Source of the DNA: a virus | Length of the DNA: 28,679 nucleotides | Direction: 5' to 3' (one strand) | Virus record (IMG/VR): IMGVR_UViG_3300030450_001163 | Span: 1 to 28,679 of that record | Position numbers and translations under genes: made by a program | Part shown: piece by piece, positions 15,904 to 19,991 of the stretch | Layout: each line of letters begins with the position of its first letter | Position numbering within the stretch: position 1 is the stretch's first letter | Notes under the pieces: model-generated | Told to the model about the DNA's origin: nothing | Database searches by the model: none | The model's input: only the letters and a program-made list of their open reading frames with translations

Positions 15904-16012
15904 GAAGCACAGAAAATATCCTAGTAGCCTAGAGAACTTTAAAAAGTTAAAAAATTACATTAAAAAATTAACTAAAAACAATAAAAATGGCAGGACAAAA
16001 ACTAACGGATAA
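15893..16012 (+). CDS. Possible small basic protein
   Basis: 39 codons encoding MDVKKHRKYPSSLENFKKLK and a Lys/Asn-rich tail. It overlaps the connector gene's end by 11 bases and the next gene's start by 26. Overlap geometry and a plausible helix-forming sequence favour a real gene, but the A-rich codons could also arise by chance. Confidence 0.38.
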   Translation: MDVKKHRKYPSSLENFKKLKNYIKKLTKNNKNGRTKTNG

Positions 16013-16523
16013 AACGGCATTAGAGCAACAAACAGGCTCTGGTGATTTATTTATGGTTGTAGATGTCAATGACACGACAGGGTCAGCGGCAGGAACGAGT
16101 AAAAAAATAGACTCAAAATATATTATTCAAACAGATAAAATATCTGTATCTAATGCAGAGGTTTTAGATTTAGATACAAATGAAAAAACATTAGTTGGAG
16201 CATTGAGTGGCTATATGATAACTCCGCTAACTGTTACCATATTATGTACTTATGCTGCATCTACAGAAAATCAAAGAAAGAAGTTATATTTTGGTTTTGA
16301 TGATGGAGATGATGATGTACATTGGTCTAATGTATCTAATATGATGGACGGACGGACTACAGATGTTACTTATCATCTTGGAGCAGGAGAAAGCTCCAAA
16401 GAGGGGTCTTGTACTATTTCAACAATAAATAAACCTTTTATTTGTTGGGCTGAATCTACTGGATTTGCAGGTGGATGGTCTATGGATGTTTATGTTACTT
16501 ATGCTTACACTAAAGTATTATGA
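15987..16523 (+). CDS. Fibre-like or minor virion protein
   Basis: 178 residues. The N-terminus (MAGQKLTDKTALEQQTGSGD, then LFMVVDVNDTTGSAAGTSKK) is a motif seen at the start of many flavobacterial phage tail or fibre proteins, with a beta-rich Tyr/Trp-containing C-terminal half (FICWAESTGFAGGWSMDVYV). The likely role is a spike or fibre subunit binding the host surface. The stop overlaps the next start as ATGA (16520-16523). Confidence 0.55.
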   Translation: MAGQKLTDKTALEQQTGSGDLFMVVDVNDTTGSAAGTSKKIDSKYIIQTDKISVSNAEVLDLDTNEKTLVGALSGYMITPLTVTILCTYAASTENQRKKLYFGFDDGDDDVHWSNVSNMMDGRTTDVTYHLGAGESSKEGSCTISTINKPFICWAESTGFAGGWSMDVYVTYAYTKVL

Positions 16524-17539
16524 TAAAGTATATATTTTTATTATTACCCTTTTTAACACTTGGACAAATAGATTTCTTCAAGTATTCTACTATTTACACA
16601 TCTATGAATGTAAATACAAGCATGGTAGAAAATCAAGACTATATTTCTATTGACAAAGGCTATGAAGATGTAACACAAGTAAATCCGTATGATTATAACT
16701 TAACGATTGGCATAAGAAAAATAGCCAGAATGGATTATGAAAAAAAGCTTACAACTTGGTATTACGGTACTGAAAAATCTGTTAGTGATAATGTTACTAT
16801 TGGTAATAGCGTTGGTTTTGAGTATTTATTTAACTACTCATTTATTCGTAATCGTGGTGACTCGTTTGTGGAACAGAATTATTGGTTAAGATATTTAGGT
16901 AAGAGATTTGTGGTAAAAGCACAATATACTGATATGCAAAGAGTGGACCTTAGATATAACTCAGCAGATGCTAGATTAAGATGGACAAGAGGTAATTTTG
17001 ACTTTACTTTAGGTGGTGTATTTAGAGTACACGACCCCTATGGAATTACACCTATTGATGATTTCTGGGTAGCAGGAGAACAGTCATTCCCACAATTAGC
17101 AGAACAGTTTGGCTATTCTAGTCAATTTGTAAATGGTCAATGGCATTGGTTTAAAAACGAAGAATTACTAGCAACATCAAATGATGAGTTCTACAAGCAT
17201 TATTTTGGTGAAGCAATAGCCGATTTTAACGCTAGAGAATTAGAAGCTTTAGGTATGCAAAAACAACTTAGTCTAGTTATTGGTTTAGCATATTATAAAT
17301 ATACCCCTAAATATTGGGCTCACCTTTGGGCTAATCTAATGCCTTATCATCGTGGTTTAGATGATTTCTCTTATGAATACGGAGAAAGTGGCTTAGAACG
17401 CTTAGAATGGGATTCTGGAGCTATTTTAGGACTGAGAGTAACCAATCATTTAGGATTGTTTGTAGAAGGCACACATTTAAAGTATTGGGAAAAGCCTGTA
17501 TATGAGTGCAAATTTGGGTTTAATTATTTAATATTTTAG
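16520..17539 (+). CDS. Exported outer-membrane beta-barrel-like protein
   Basis: 339 residues. MIKYIFLLLPFLTLGQ is a short signal peptide with probable cleavage before Gln, as in Flavobacteriia. The mature part has many alternating aromatic and charged strands (RWTRGNFDFTLGGVFRVHDP, LWANLMPYHRG) and ends in YECKFGFNYLIF, with the terminal Phe that is the classic BAM recognition signature of outer membrane barrels. No catalytic motif is visible. Translationally coupled to the fibre-like gene before it and two bases before the secreted gene after it. It might change the host surface during infection, for example by blocking superinfection, or be a virion protein; neither is proven. Confidence 0.62.
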   Translation: MIKYIFLLLPFLTLGQIDFFKYSTIYTSMNVNTSMVENQDYISIDKGYEDVTQVNPYDYNLTIGIRKIARMDYEKKLTTWYYGTEKSVSDNVTIGNSVGFEYLFNYSFIRNRGDSFVEQNYWLRYLGKRFVVKAQYTDMQRVDLRYNSADARLRWTRGNFDFTLGGVFRVHDPYGITPIDDFWVAGEQSFPQLAEQFGYSSQFVNGQWHWFKNEELLATSNDEFYKHYFGEAIADFNARELEALGMQKQLSLVIGLAYYKYTPKYWAHLWANLMPYHRGLDDFSYEYGESGLERLEWDSGAILGLRVTNHLGLFVEGTHLKYWEKPVYECKFGFNYLIF

Positions 17540-17541
17540 TT

Positions 17542-18321
17542 ATGAAAAAAGTATTGTTTGTATTGTTTGCTTTTATAGGTTCATTTTCTTTTTCACAAGA
17601 ATATGATTTTGAACAATTATGTATAGCTTGTGCTGAGTCAGGTGGTTTCTATTGTGGTGATGACCCTAATAATTGGACTCAATACTCTCCTGAAGGTTGC
17701 GTTCAAGCATCTTGGATTAATGATGGATGGGTTGACTGTGTTGATAGTAGTGATGAGGGAGAGGGTGTTGTTCCTACTGCTTTATCAGAGTGCGCTCCAC
17801 CTCCTCCTCAATGTGACACTATATATGTAGATGTTCCTGTAGTAGAGTATGTATATCAAATAGATACCTTAGAAGTGCCATTTTATATATACGAAACTTT
17901 AATACAATTAGATACAATAATACAAACAGAATATATTACACAAATAGTTGTGGACACAGTTGAGATAGAAACACTTGTGCCAGAATATATATATATAACA
18001 GATACGGTAACAGTTTATGAAGACATTTTAGATACTCTATATGTTGATGTGGTTGAGTATGTTGATAGCTTAATATACGACACAATAGTTGAAATAGAAT
18101 ACGTAGAGTTTTTTGTTACTGATACAGTTTTAGAATATGTTGAAATAATAGAAACAGAATATGTAGACTGCGAAAGTGGTTTGCCTTGTACAAGTGGAGT
18201 TAGAGAAATACTAAACAATTCTAAAGAAAATAATAAAATGTATAGCCTTTTAGGTTATGAGATTAAAAGACCTGAAGGGGTGTATATTCAGAATGGTAAA
18301 ATTAAATATAAATTAAATTAA
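17542..18321 (+). CDS. Secreted LDLa-like protein with T9SS-like C-terminal domain
   Basis: 259 residues. A signal peptide (MKKVLFVLFAFIGSFSFSQ) precedes a cysteine-rich module (about residues 27-84) that fits the LDL-receptor class A pattern: FYCGD, GCVQASWINDGWVDC, then DSSDEGE, where the acidic residues bind calcium in that family. A proline hinge (CAPPPPQC) leads to about 115 residues of repeated Asp-Thr-Val/Ile and Tyr-Val-Glu strands, a likely fibrous stalk. The last 30 residues (MYSLLGYEIKRPEGVYIQNG, ending KIKYKLN) resemble a type A C-terminal sorting domain of the Bacteroidota type IX secretion system. So the protein could be exported and anchored on the host cell. Its partner is the barrel-like protein before it. 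Confidence 0.66.
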   Translation: MKKVLFVLFAFIGSFSFSQEYDFEQLCIACAESGGFYCGDDPNNWTQYSPEGCVQASWINDGWVDCVDSSDEGEGVVPTALSECAPPPPQCDTIYVDVPVVEYVYQIDTLEVPFYIYETLIQLDTIIQTEYITQIVVDTVEIETLVPEYIYITDTVTVYEDILDTLYVDVVEYVDSLIYDTIVEIEYVEFFVTDTVLEYVEIIETEYVDCESGLPCTSGVREILNNSKENNKMYSLLGYEIKRPEGVYIQNGKIKYKLN

Positions 18322-18327
18322 TAAATT

Positions 18328-18510
18328 ATGGATATTTTAAAGAAAATTGTAAATAGTAAAAAGTTCTGGTATGCCTTTGGTATGTTTATTTTTATAAACT
18401 GCTCTAGTGCATTTGGAATTTCAGAAGGTGAAATGGCTAACCTTATTTGGGTTGGTATTGCACTTATTGTTGCTCAAGGAGTTGCTGACCGTAAATCTTG
18501 TAGCAAATGA
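18328..18510 (+). CDS. Small two-TM protein, possible holin
   Basis: 60 residues with two hydrophobic segments (about 13-30 and 37-50) and a charged, Lys-rich C-terminus (VADRKSCSK). Small two-span proteins directly upstream of lysis genes are commonly holins. It overlaps the next gene's start as ATGA (18507-18510). No defined holin family could be named. Confidence 0.5.
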   Translation: MDILKKIVNSKKFWYAFGMFIFINCSSAFGISEGEMANLIWVGIALIVAQGVADRKSCSK

Positions 18511-18785
18511 AATTAAGCGAGAAGTCTGAACTCACCCTTGACTTAAAGACGATAGGAATTATTGTTGGCATGGTTATTTCTGTGTCTAGTACTTATTTTA
18601 CATTGAAAGGACAAATTGATGAAAATAAAAAGGCATTAGAAAAAGGGAATTGGGTTAGTGCTACCGAGTATAATCTAAAGGATGAACTTGTTAGGACTAC
18701 CATTATGGGCAATAGTAAAAAGCTAGATGCGATTGAAGATAAGCTAAATACTATTGATGAAAGGCTTTACAACTTAAACAAATAG
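18507..18785 (+). CDS. Membrane-anchored coiled-coil protein (lysis accessory)
   Basis: 92 residues: N-terminal transmembrane helix (about 14-33, KTIGIIVGMVISVSSTYFTL) followed by a soluble coiled coil (about 36-92, GQIDENKKALEKGN and SKKLDAIEDKLNTIDERLYN). The topology resembles XhlA-type or spanin-type lysis proteins. It sits in the lysis region and overlaps the preceding holin-like gene. Confidence 0.5.
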   Translation: MKLSEKSELTLDLKTIGIIVGMVISVSSTYFTLKGQIDENKKALEKGNWVSATEYNLKDELVRTTIMGNSKKLDAIEDKLNTIDERLYNLNK

Positions 18786-18787
18786 AT

Positions 18788-19123
18788 ATGAATCATATTC
18801 CATATATAGTAACTGGGTTGTTCTTTTTTTGTATTGGCTCTTGTGTTGGTCAAGTGTCAGTAGTTCATTTTAATAGTGAATGGAACTCTGAAAATAGCTT
18901 TGATGTTTCTGTTTTAAAAGATTGTGAAAAGGCAGATATTATTATCTGCACTAATCCAGAAGAACAAGAAAAACACAAGATTAAATCTGTACCTACTGTT
19001 ATTGTGTTTGATAACAAAATAGAGGTTGCTAGATTTGAAGCAAATATAATGATGCAATTAGAAGCAACATTTAAAGATATACAAGAAAAGATTGACAAAA
19101 TATATTTAGCTAAATTCGAATGA
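18788..19123 (+). CDS. Membrane-tethered thioredoxin-fold protein lacking CxxC
   Basis: 111 residues. An N-terminal membrane segment (about 5-20) is followed by a thioredoxin-like pattern: VVHFNSEWNSENS, ADIIICTNPEEQ, KHKIKSVPTVIVFDNK. The SVPT motif contains the cis-proline (Pro 69) characteristic of the fold. At the position where thioredoxins have WCxxC this protein has WNSEN, so it cannot carry out dithiol exchange. It overlaps the endolysin gene by four bases. In a lysis cluster it might bind a partner protein, but its function is unknown. Confidence 0.6.
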   Translation: MNHIPYIVTGLFFFCIGSCVGQVSVVHFNSEWNSENSFDVSVLKDCEKADIIICTNPEEQEKHKIKSVPTVIVFDNKIEVARFEANIMMQLEATFKDIQEKIDKIYLAKFE

Positions 19124-19614
19124 AATTATCAAGGTCATTTACACTACAGGAGCTAACAAGGTCAGATACCGCATTACGCTTAAATATGGATAATACCCCC
19201 ACAAAAGAGGGCATCATAAAATTACGACTTCTAGCCGCTAATCTTTTACAACCACTCAGGAATGTAGTTGGTCCTATTAGAATTACAAGCGGCTATAGAA
19301 GTCCTGCTCTTTCACAAGCTATAGGCTCTTCATCTAACTCTCAACATTGTAGATATGAAGCAGTAGATTGTCAGTATGTTTTTAGAAAGACTATGAACAA
19401 TCTTAAAATATATAATGCTCTAATTGATTTAGACTTAGACTTTGACCAATGCATATTAGAGTTCGGAACAAGTACTCACAATTTAGATGGCAAACCTGCT
19501 TGGATTCATCTTAGTTGGAAAGTAAGTGATAATAGAAGAGAAGTTCTTGTAGCTTATAAAGACGAAAATAATAGAACAAAATATAGACCACCAATTAAAT
19601 ATAAATCCTTATGA
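19120..19614 (+). CDS. Peptidase M15 endolysin
   Basis: 164 residues. Zinc peptidase of the D-Ala-D-Ala carboxypeptidase type that cleaves peptidoglycan cross-links during lysis. Motifs in order: RITSGYRSP (about 54-62), the zinc motif SQHCRYEAVDC (His 76, Asp 83), a possible catalytic Glu at 114 (ILEFG), and WIHLSW (third zinc ligand His 130). These match the M15 metallopeptidase signature. No signal peptide or transmembrane segment, so it depends on a holin. Overlaps both neighbours by four bases. Confidence 0.88.
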   Translation: MKLSRSFTLQELTRSDTALRLNMDNTPTKEGIIKLRLLAANLLQPLRNVVGPIRITSGYRSPALSQAIGSSSNSQHCRYEAVDCQYVFRKTMNNLKIYNALIDLDLDFDQCILEFGTSTHNLDGKPAWIHLSWKVSDNRREVLVAYKDENNRTKYRPPIKYKSL

Positions 19615-19991
19615 AATTTTTATCTAAACTATTTGGAAATATGTCGCTCGATGTTAATAAAATCGTGGATAACTTACATACTAGCGCTGAAGAAAAAGCT
19701 GATATGCGCCGTAAATTTGAACAGATATTTTTAGAAGCACAAGCACACGCTGAGGAACAGATTACTAGAAGATGGGAAGCAGACGCTAAAGCAGGTTGGT
19801 TACCTGCAAACATACGACCTTTAACACTAGCATTTCTAGTAGTGTCAACGGTTCTACTAATCTTTATTGAAGGAGGATTAATTGAGTTTGAAGTTAAAGA
19901 AAATTGGATAGACCTACTACAGTTAGTATTGATAACGGTGATTGGAGCCTACTTTGGTGGGAGGAGTATTGAAAAAGTTAGAAACAAATAA
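19611..19991 (+). CDS. 3-TM holin-like protein (GTA holin family)
   Basis: 126 residues: an acidic/charged coiled region (about 15-60) followed by hydrophobic helices (about 70-86 and 102-117) with the motif ADAKAGWLPANIRPLTLAFL, a hallmark of 3-TM holins found in gene transfer agents and Rhizobiales phages and also in Bacteroidota phages. It ends in GGRSIEKVRNK. It permeabilises the inner membrane so the M15 enzyme can act. Its TAA stop shares bases with the likely start (ATA) of the next gene. Confidence 0.78.
   Translation: MKFLSKLFGNMSLDVNKIVDNLHTSAEEKADMRRKFEQIFLEAQAHAEEQITRRWEADAKAGWLPANIRPLTLAFLVVSTVLLIFIEGGLIEFEVKENWIDLLQLVLITVIGAYFGGRSIEKVRNK

Follow-up and report, generated by a model that had tools for sequence, protein, structure and literature searches.

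Can a marine phage use the export machinery of its host to place a protein of its own on the surface of the infected cell? This question is raised by an open reading frame at positions 17542..18321 (+ strand) of the window, by which we mean the whole stretch of DNA that was analysed, one complete IMG/VR virus record that is 28,679 bases long. A sequence-only reading had described its product as an exported protein that joins a signal peptide, an LDLa-like module, a repeated stalk and a tail resembling a sorting domain of the type IX secretion system (T9SS), and had considered such a phage gene new biology. Inspection of the reading frame showed that the ORF is intact and real, begins with ATG and encodes 259 aa, and every element described was present. 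The gene directly upstream, which encodes an obligate partner, had been overlooked.

The Phage and the Protein Family

The window carries the gene set of a tailed phage, with recognisable genes for portal and tail proteins, an M15 endolysin and a holin. By portal protein, the nearest isolated phages were the Nonlabens phages P12024S/L (31% identity), which suggests that the host of the window phage is flavobacterial. The INPHARED search did not find the LDLa-headed gene in the Nonlabens phages P12024S/L, and no relative of the 259-aa protein was detected among INPHARED phages at E<=1. Homologues were found at 60 loci in marine viral contigs of IMG/VR, and these fetched loci, together with the neighbours of the partner gene, gave a wider set of 106 distinct LDLa-headed proteins. 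The parts follow each other as signal peptide, head, stalk, neck and tail throughout the family (58 aligned proteins; 60 loci), and because the 60 loci keep this identical order, a chance origin of the layout is unlikely. Across the family alignment C27, C30, C38, C53, C66, C84, C91, C210, C216 and D61/D65/D71/E72 were invariant or nearly so, as was the block N60-D61-G62-W63-x-D65-C66-x-D68-x-x-D71-E72 in the 58 aligned proteins.

The claimed signal peptide was recognised by inspection at residues 1-18 (17542..17595, + strand). The cleavage region reads MKKVLFVLFAFIGSFSFS|Q, and the mature protein probably starts at Q19; the signal peptide was conserved and Q19 invariant in 58/58 proteins.

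Family sequence comparison also confirmed the repeated stalk (17812..18168, + strand), which consists of imperfect DT/EY repeats at about residues 91-209 of the window protein. Its length varied from 17 to 185 residues in the 104 proteins that could be parsed out of 106, and the 10,235 stalk residues of these 104 homologues contained no Lys or Arg at all, with Asp and Glu together making up 24.5%. As a monomer, the stalk was modelled by AF2 with low confidence. A stalk free of Lys and Arg is striking for AT-rich phages, in which AAA codons are common, and possibly serves protease resistance or calcium binding. The longer-stalk members L006, L018, L019, L022 and L048 (305-314 aa in total) look like products of an internal duplication of the DT/EY unit.

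An LDLa-Like Head with Rearranged Cysteines

The head lies between C27 and C84 (17620..17793, + strand). Against the Pfam model PF00057 the window protein scored 16.3 bits (E=0.012), which is below the cut-off of 24.1, and 36 of the 42 family members matched this model weakly, with a best E of 4e-4. The best PDB matches of the family profile were all LDLa modules, namely those of LRP1, VLDLR and LRP2. The predicted structure was confident in this part (AF2, about 86-91 across residues 21-80), and its Foldseek matches were nearly all LDLa-containing structures, each of them individually non-significant (E>0.3).

LDLa modules are ligand-binding, and four acidic residues bind calcium in them. The four corresponding residues of the phage head, D61, D65, D71 and E72, were kept in 106/106 proteins, and the calcium-site pattern W/Y-x-x-D-G-x-x-D-C-x-D-x-x-D-E is common to the head and to LDLa domains. 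In canonical LDLa modules the six cysteines are paired C1-C3, C2-C5 and C4-C6. Like the modules of LDLR, LRP1 and VLDLR, the phage head has cysteines at positions C1, C2, C3, C5 and C6; unlike them, it has N in place of C4, an additional N-terminal cysteine (C27) and a GDDP.NWT.YSP insertion between C2 and C3. Its six cysteines are invariant, and because member L271 does without the seventh, C91, we regard these six as the core of the head. The exchange of C4 for the N-terminal C27 suggests that C27 would pair with C84.

Two cellular proteins were related to the head. A Neomarinimicrobiota homologue (L063 9218-11344), which combines lamin-tail domains with several LDLa repeats, one of them of the phage type, contains the phage-type block GGFYCGDD.SNWT..SP.GCV together with a normal LDLa C4, and scored 27.3 bits, above the PF00057 cut-off. 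More LDLa-type repeats follow this bridging block, one of which also exceeds the Pfam cut-off. This homologue appears to link the phage head to the curated LDLa family, and we believe that it is the strongest argument for LDLa identity. A secreted Crocinitomicaceae protein of 1138 aa (L062 9956-13372) carries two copies of the head in the phage layout, with C4 lost and the N-terminal cysteine gained. It also contains PKD and Kazal domains as well as a sorting domain of PF18962, and the genome that encodes it has 54 TIGR04183 matches. It is possible that this two-module protein represents the cellular source of the phage head. Taken with the bacterial bridge, the family profile and the fold searches support the LDLa assignment made earlier, in the form of a genuine but cysteine-rearranged variant whose calcium site would be intact.

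A Tail Similar to a Short Form of the T9SS Signal

The head and stalk are followed by a two-cysteine neck (CxxGxPC) and a short C-terminal tail with the motif YxLxGxxIxxPxGxYIxxGKxKYK (18169..18318, + strand); the tail itself has about 41 residues, at approximately residues 217-259. It had been proposed to be a T9SS sorting domain, and here the outcome was divided. The tail matched none of the curated sorting-domain models (TIGR04183 and PF18962, in searches of Pfam, NCBIfam and PHROGs), and the type B T9SS models did not match it either. Likeness in position and motif was supported by profile comparisons. When the best 30 matches listed per profile were taken from 199 Flavobacteriales genomes, 20/30 matches of the tail profile lay at the C-termini of proteins with a signal peptide (or cut at the N-terminus), whereas the reversed profile gave 1/30 (Fisher p=2.3e-7, an optimistic value, since signal peptides were called by a simple heuristic and matches from the same family are not independent). 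Eight of ten checked cellular C-termini that the tail profile matched exceeded the TIGR04183 cut-off. HHalign aligned the tail with T9SS domains at a score of 19.2 over nine columns only, and none of 200 column shuffles reached this score (mean 9.2).

Studies have shown that type A T9SS domains have about 100 residues and seven strands (PMC12618676). The phage tail is like these domains (TIGR04183/PF18962) in standing at the C-terminus of a signal-peptide protein and in the YDLxGxxI...GxYI motif. It differs from them in its length of about 41 aa, against 70-100 aa, which is too short for a full Ig-like domain, in lacking the PNP-containing first strands and in having no match to the curated models. 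By position and motif, the tail therefore resembles a shortened lookalike of a T9SS signal. We infer that export of the 259-aa protein by the T9SS is likely.

The nearest matches to the whole tail were short exported proteins with endings like SGIEE...KMYDLLGRELKEAP..QLYIQNGKK, and in six genomes checked such short cellular tails occurred in essentially one protein per genome. At the DNA level, the pattern GxYIx[ND]GK was matched only 12 times in 299 Flavobacteriales genomes, and a single match stood close to the C-terminus of a clear T9SS-like protein; in these genomes, therefore, the short form does not serve as a common general tag. Five small exported flavobacterial proteins (L094, L095, L110, L117 and L118; open frames of 171-216 aa) also end in a short T9SS-like tail that the curated models miss.

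An Obligate Partner with a Predicted Barrel

The gene directly upstream (16520..17539, + strand) encodes a protein with a signal peptide, a predicted 12-stranded outer-membrane beta-barrel and a final F. The structure model, whose mean pLDDT was 77.5, contained about 12 long strands, and 20/20 Foldseek matches in the PDB at E<=0.001 were outer-membrane barrels. At the sequence level the barrel had no credible match to a Pfam family, a PDB sequence or a phage record: 33 members gave no noteworthy Pfam match, a comparison with 50,697 deposited phage records gave no convincing one, and a search of 399 Flavobacteriales genomes, run without a positive control, gave no relatives. Within these searches the barrel gene appears to be phage-only. 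It is encoded in at least 586 stretches of IMG/VR, and because the deposited phage records hold no convincing match, we consider it frequent in nature yet absent from model systems.

Among these stretches (at least 586), 80 loci were kept for counting. Three of them lack the LDLa-headed gene and stop at a contig edge just past the barrel, so the LDLa-headed gene directly follows the barrel gene in 77/77 testable loci. Only 12/60 loci have the portal of the window, although some of the 60 are short, and the pair is thus carried by phages with differing backbones. A surface-protein gene beside the gene of an outer-membrane partner is also the arrangement of type B T9SS cargo and its cognate PorP/SprF shuttle (PMC12618676); the phage barrel, however, shows no PorP/SprF homology and the phage tail no match to type B models. 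The identity of the barrel as a PorP/SprF shuttle was rejected for want of PF11751 homology: the HHalign alignment was confined to the N-terminal signal-peptide region and had a probability of 22%.

Proposed Surface Display by a Two-Gene Unit

Given the two signal peptides, the outer-membrane barrel and the surface-type architecture, this locus is best read as one for surface display on the infected cell. Our tentative view is that the LDLa-headed protein supplies the cell-surface component of a unit of two genes, by which marine Bacteroidota phages alter the surface of the infected cell. Both proteins carry signal peptides and would be late products, like those of the fibre and lysis genes. 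The mature LDLa-headed protein would pass the outer membrane, for which the host T9SS, using the tail, is the most likely route, and would stay associated with its cognate barrel, while the stalk, as a variable spacer, would hold the calcium-site head away from the cell. In this way the unit probably remodels the surface of the infected cell; most likely a receptor is masked or occupied, and progeny and rival phages would fail to adsorb to the doomed cell or its debris. The late position by fibre and lysis genes and the retention in different backbones point to a benefit in the course of infection, and receptor masking or superinfection exclusion is the function we prefer. Against T9SS surface display stand the absence of a match between the tail and any curated T9SS model, its length of about half that of a type A domain, the rarity of the short tail form in the cells examined and a barrel that is not detectably a shuttle of the PorP/SprF family.

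Phage-encoded envelope proteins that block receptors are known: T5 Llp and the lambdoid Lc porin are made by the phage, reside in the outer membrane of the infected cell or lysogen and have demonstrated exclusion, whereas for the LDLa/barrel pair exclusion is proposed from sequence. To our knowledge, neither has homology to the pair.

Phage-encoded T9SS cargo has also been reported. A Cryophage encodes T9SS cargo (PMC7468147), and an ORF of a crAss-like phage encodes a BACON T9SS protein (PMC6949934), so the principle is not new and that part of the earlier novelty claim falls. These are, like the present protein with its T9SS-like tail, phage-encoded proteins that bear T9SS sorting signals; their sorting domains, however, are recognised ones, on endoglucanase, glycoside hydrolase, PA14 or BACON proteins, and they are not known to have an obligate barrel partner. 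A search of the open-access literature found nothing on LDLa in marine phages, and the obligate pair of a barrel and an LDLa-tipped protein appears to be undescribed; it is this conserved pair that appears new. With somewhat greater reserve, we speculated that many marine Bacteroidota phages possess a dedicated two-component display system, in which a phage-only barrel acts as shuttle or anchor for a T9SS-like, LDLa-tipped cargo and which is kept while the structural genes differ. The pair points to a widespread and uncharacterised route by which these phages rebuild the outer surface of the host with a module of animal-receptor type, for which they apparently draw on the type IX export of the host itself. 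The pair makes the control of re-adsorption and superinfection by these phages a testable question.

Other Explanations and Neighbouring Genes

The pairing in 77/77 testable loci and the failure of the tail in curated T9SS models would also be expected if the barrel itself, and not the T9SS, exported or anchored the LDLa-headed protein, with the tail as a barrel-docking domain, as in dedicated substrate-barrel pairs. FapF is a dedicated exporter of another protein, and it was among the fold matches of the barrel, at the level of general barrel similarity only. We regard this route as rather unlikely, since the tail motif is specifically common to T9SS C-termini and the barrel has no sequence homology to any known exporter.

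Whether or not the T9SS is used, the main functional rival to receptor masking is breakdown of the outer membrane at lysis, which the position beside the lysis genes fits equally well. The pair lies on the same strand between the fibre/portal genes and the endolysin/holin genes. A fibre-like gene (15987..16523, + strand; fibre by inspection only) stands directly before the barrel in portal-sharing phages and is outside the conserved pair, and profile matches placed the M15 endolysin and holin genes downstream (19120..19991, + strand); they are also near the pair in close relatives. Two further genes, usually downstream of the LDLa-headed gene, co-travel with it: one for a small membrane protein that combines a single TM segment with a coiled coil (18507..18785, + strand; 51/60 loci) and one for an exported thioredoxin-like protein without CxxC (18788..19123, + strand; 52/60 loci). 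With the barrel and the surface protein they could form a complex for outer-membrane disruption or egress. We consider this unlikely: membrane disruption has no evident need of a surface-type head on a stalk whose length varies so widely, and no spanin-type feature is known in the pair.

It is improbable that the protein is an adhesin whose calcium-binding head attaches the infected cell, or its debris, to particles or to other cells. The ligand-binding nature of LDLa modules, the stalk length polymorphism, similar to that of adhesin spacers, and the presence of the head in the large Crocinitomicaceae protein agree with it, but the retention across different phage backbones points to a benefit within the infection. 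The place among late genes, beside fibre-like genes in several loci, would suit a protein of the virion, for example a fibre or decoration; this reading is very improbable and was set aside, as the sequence-only reading had anticipated, because the signal peptide of the 259-aa protein is conserved, its head is cysteine-rich and its outer-membrane partner also bears a signal peptide, so that the protein is probably not part of the particle.

In the thioredoxin-like neighbour, the CxxC is replaced, in many homologues by W-N-x-x-N, and this protein possibly has a chaperone-like role.
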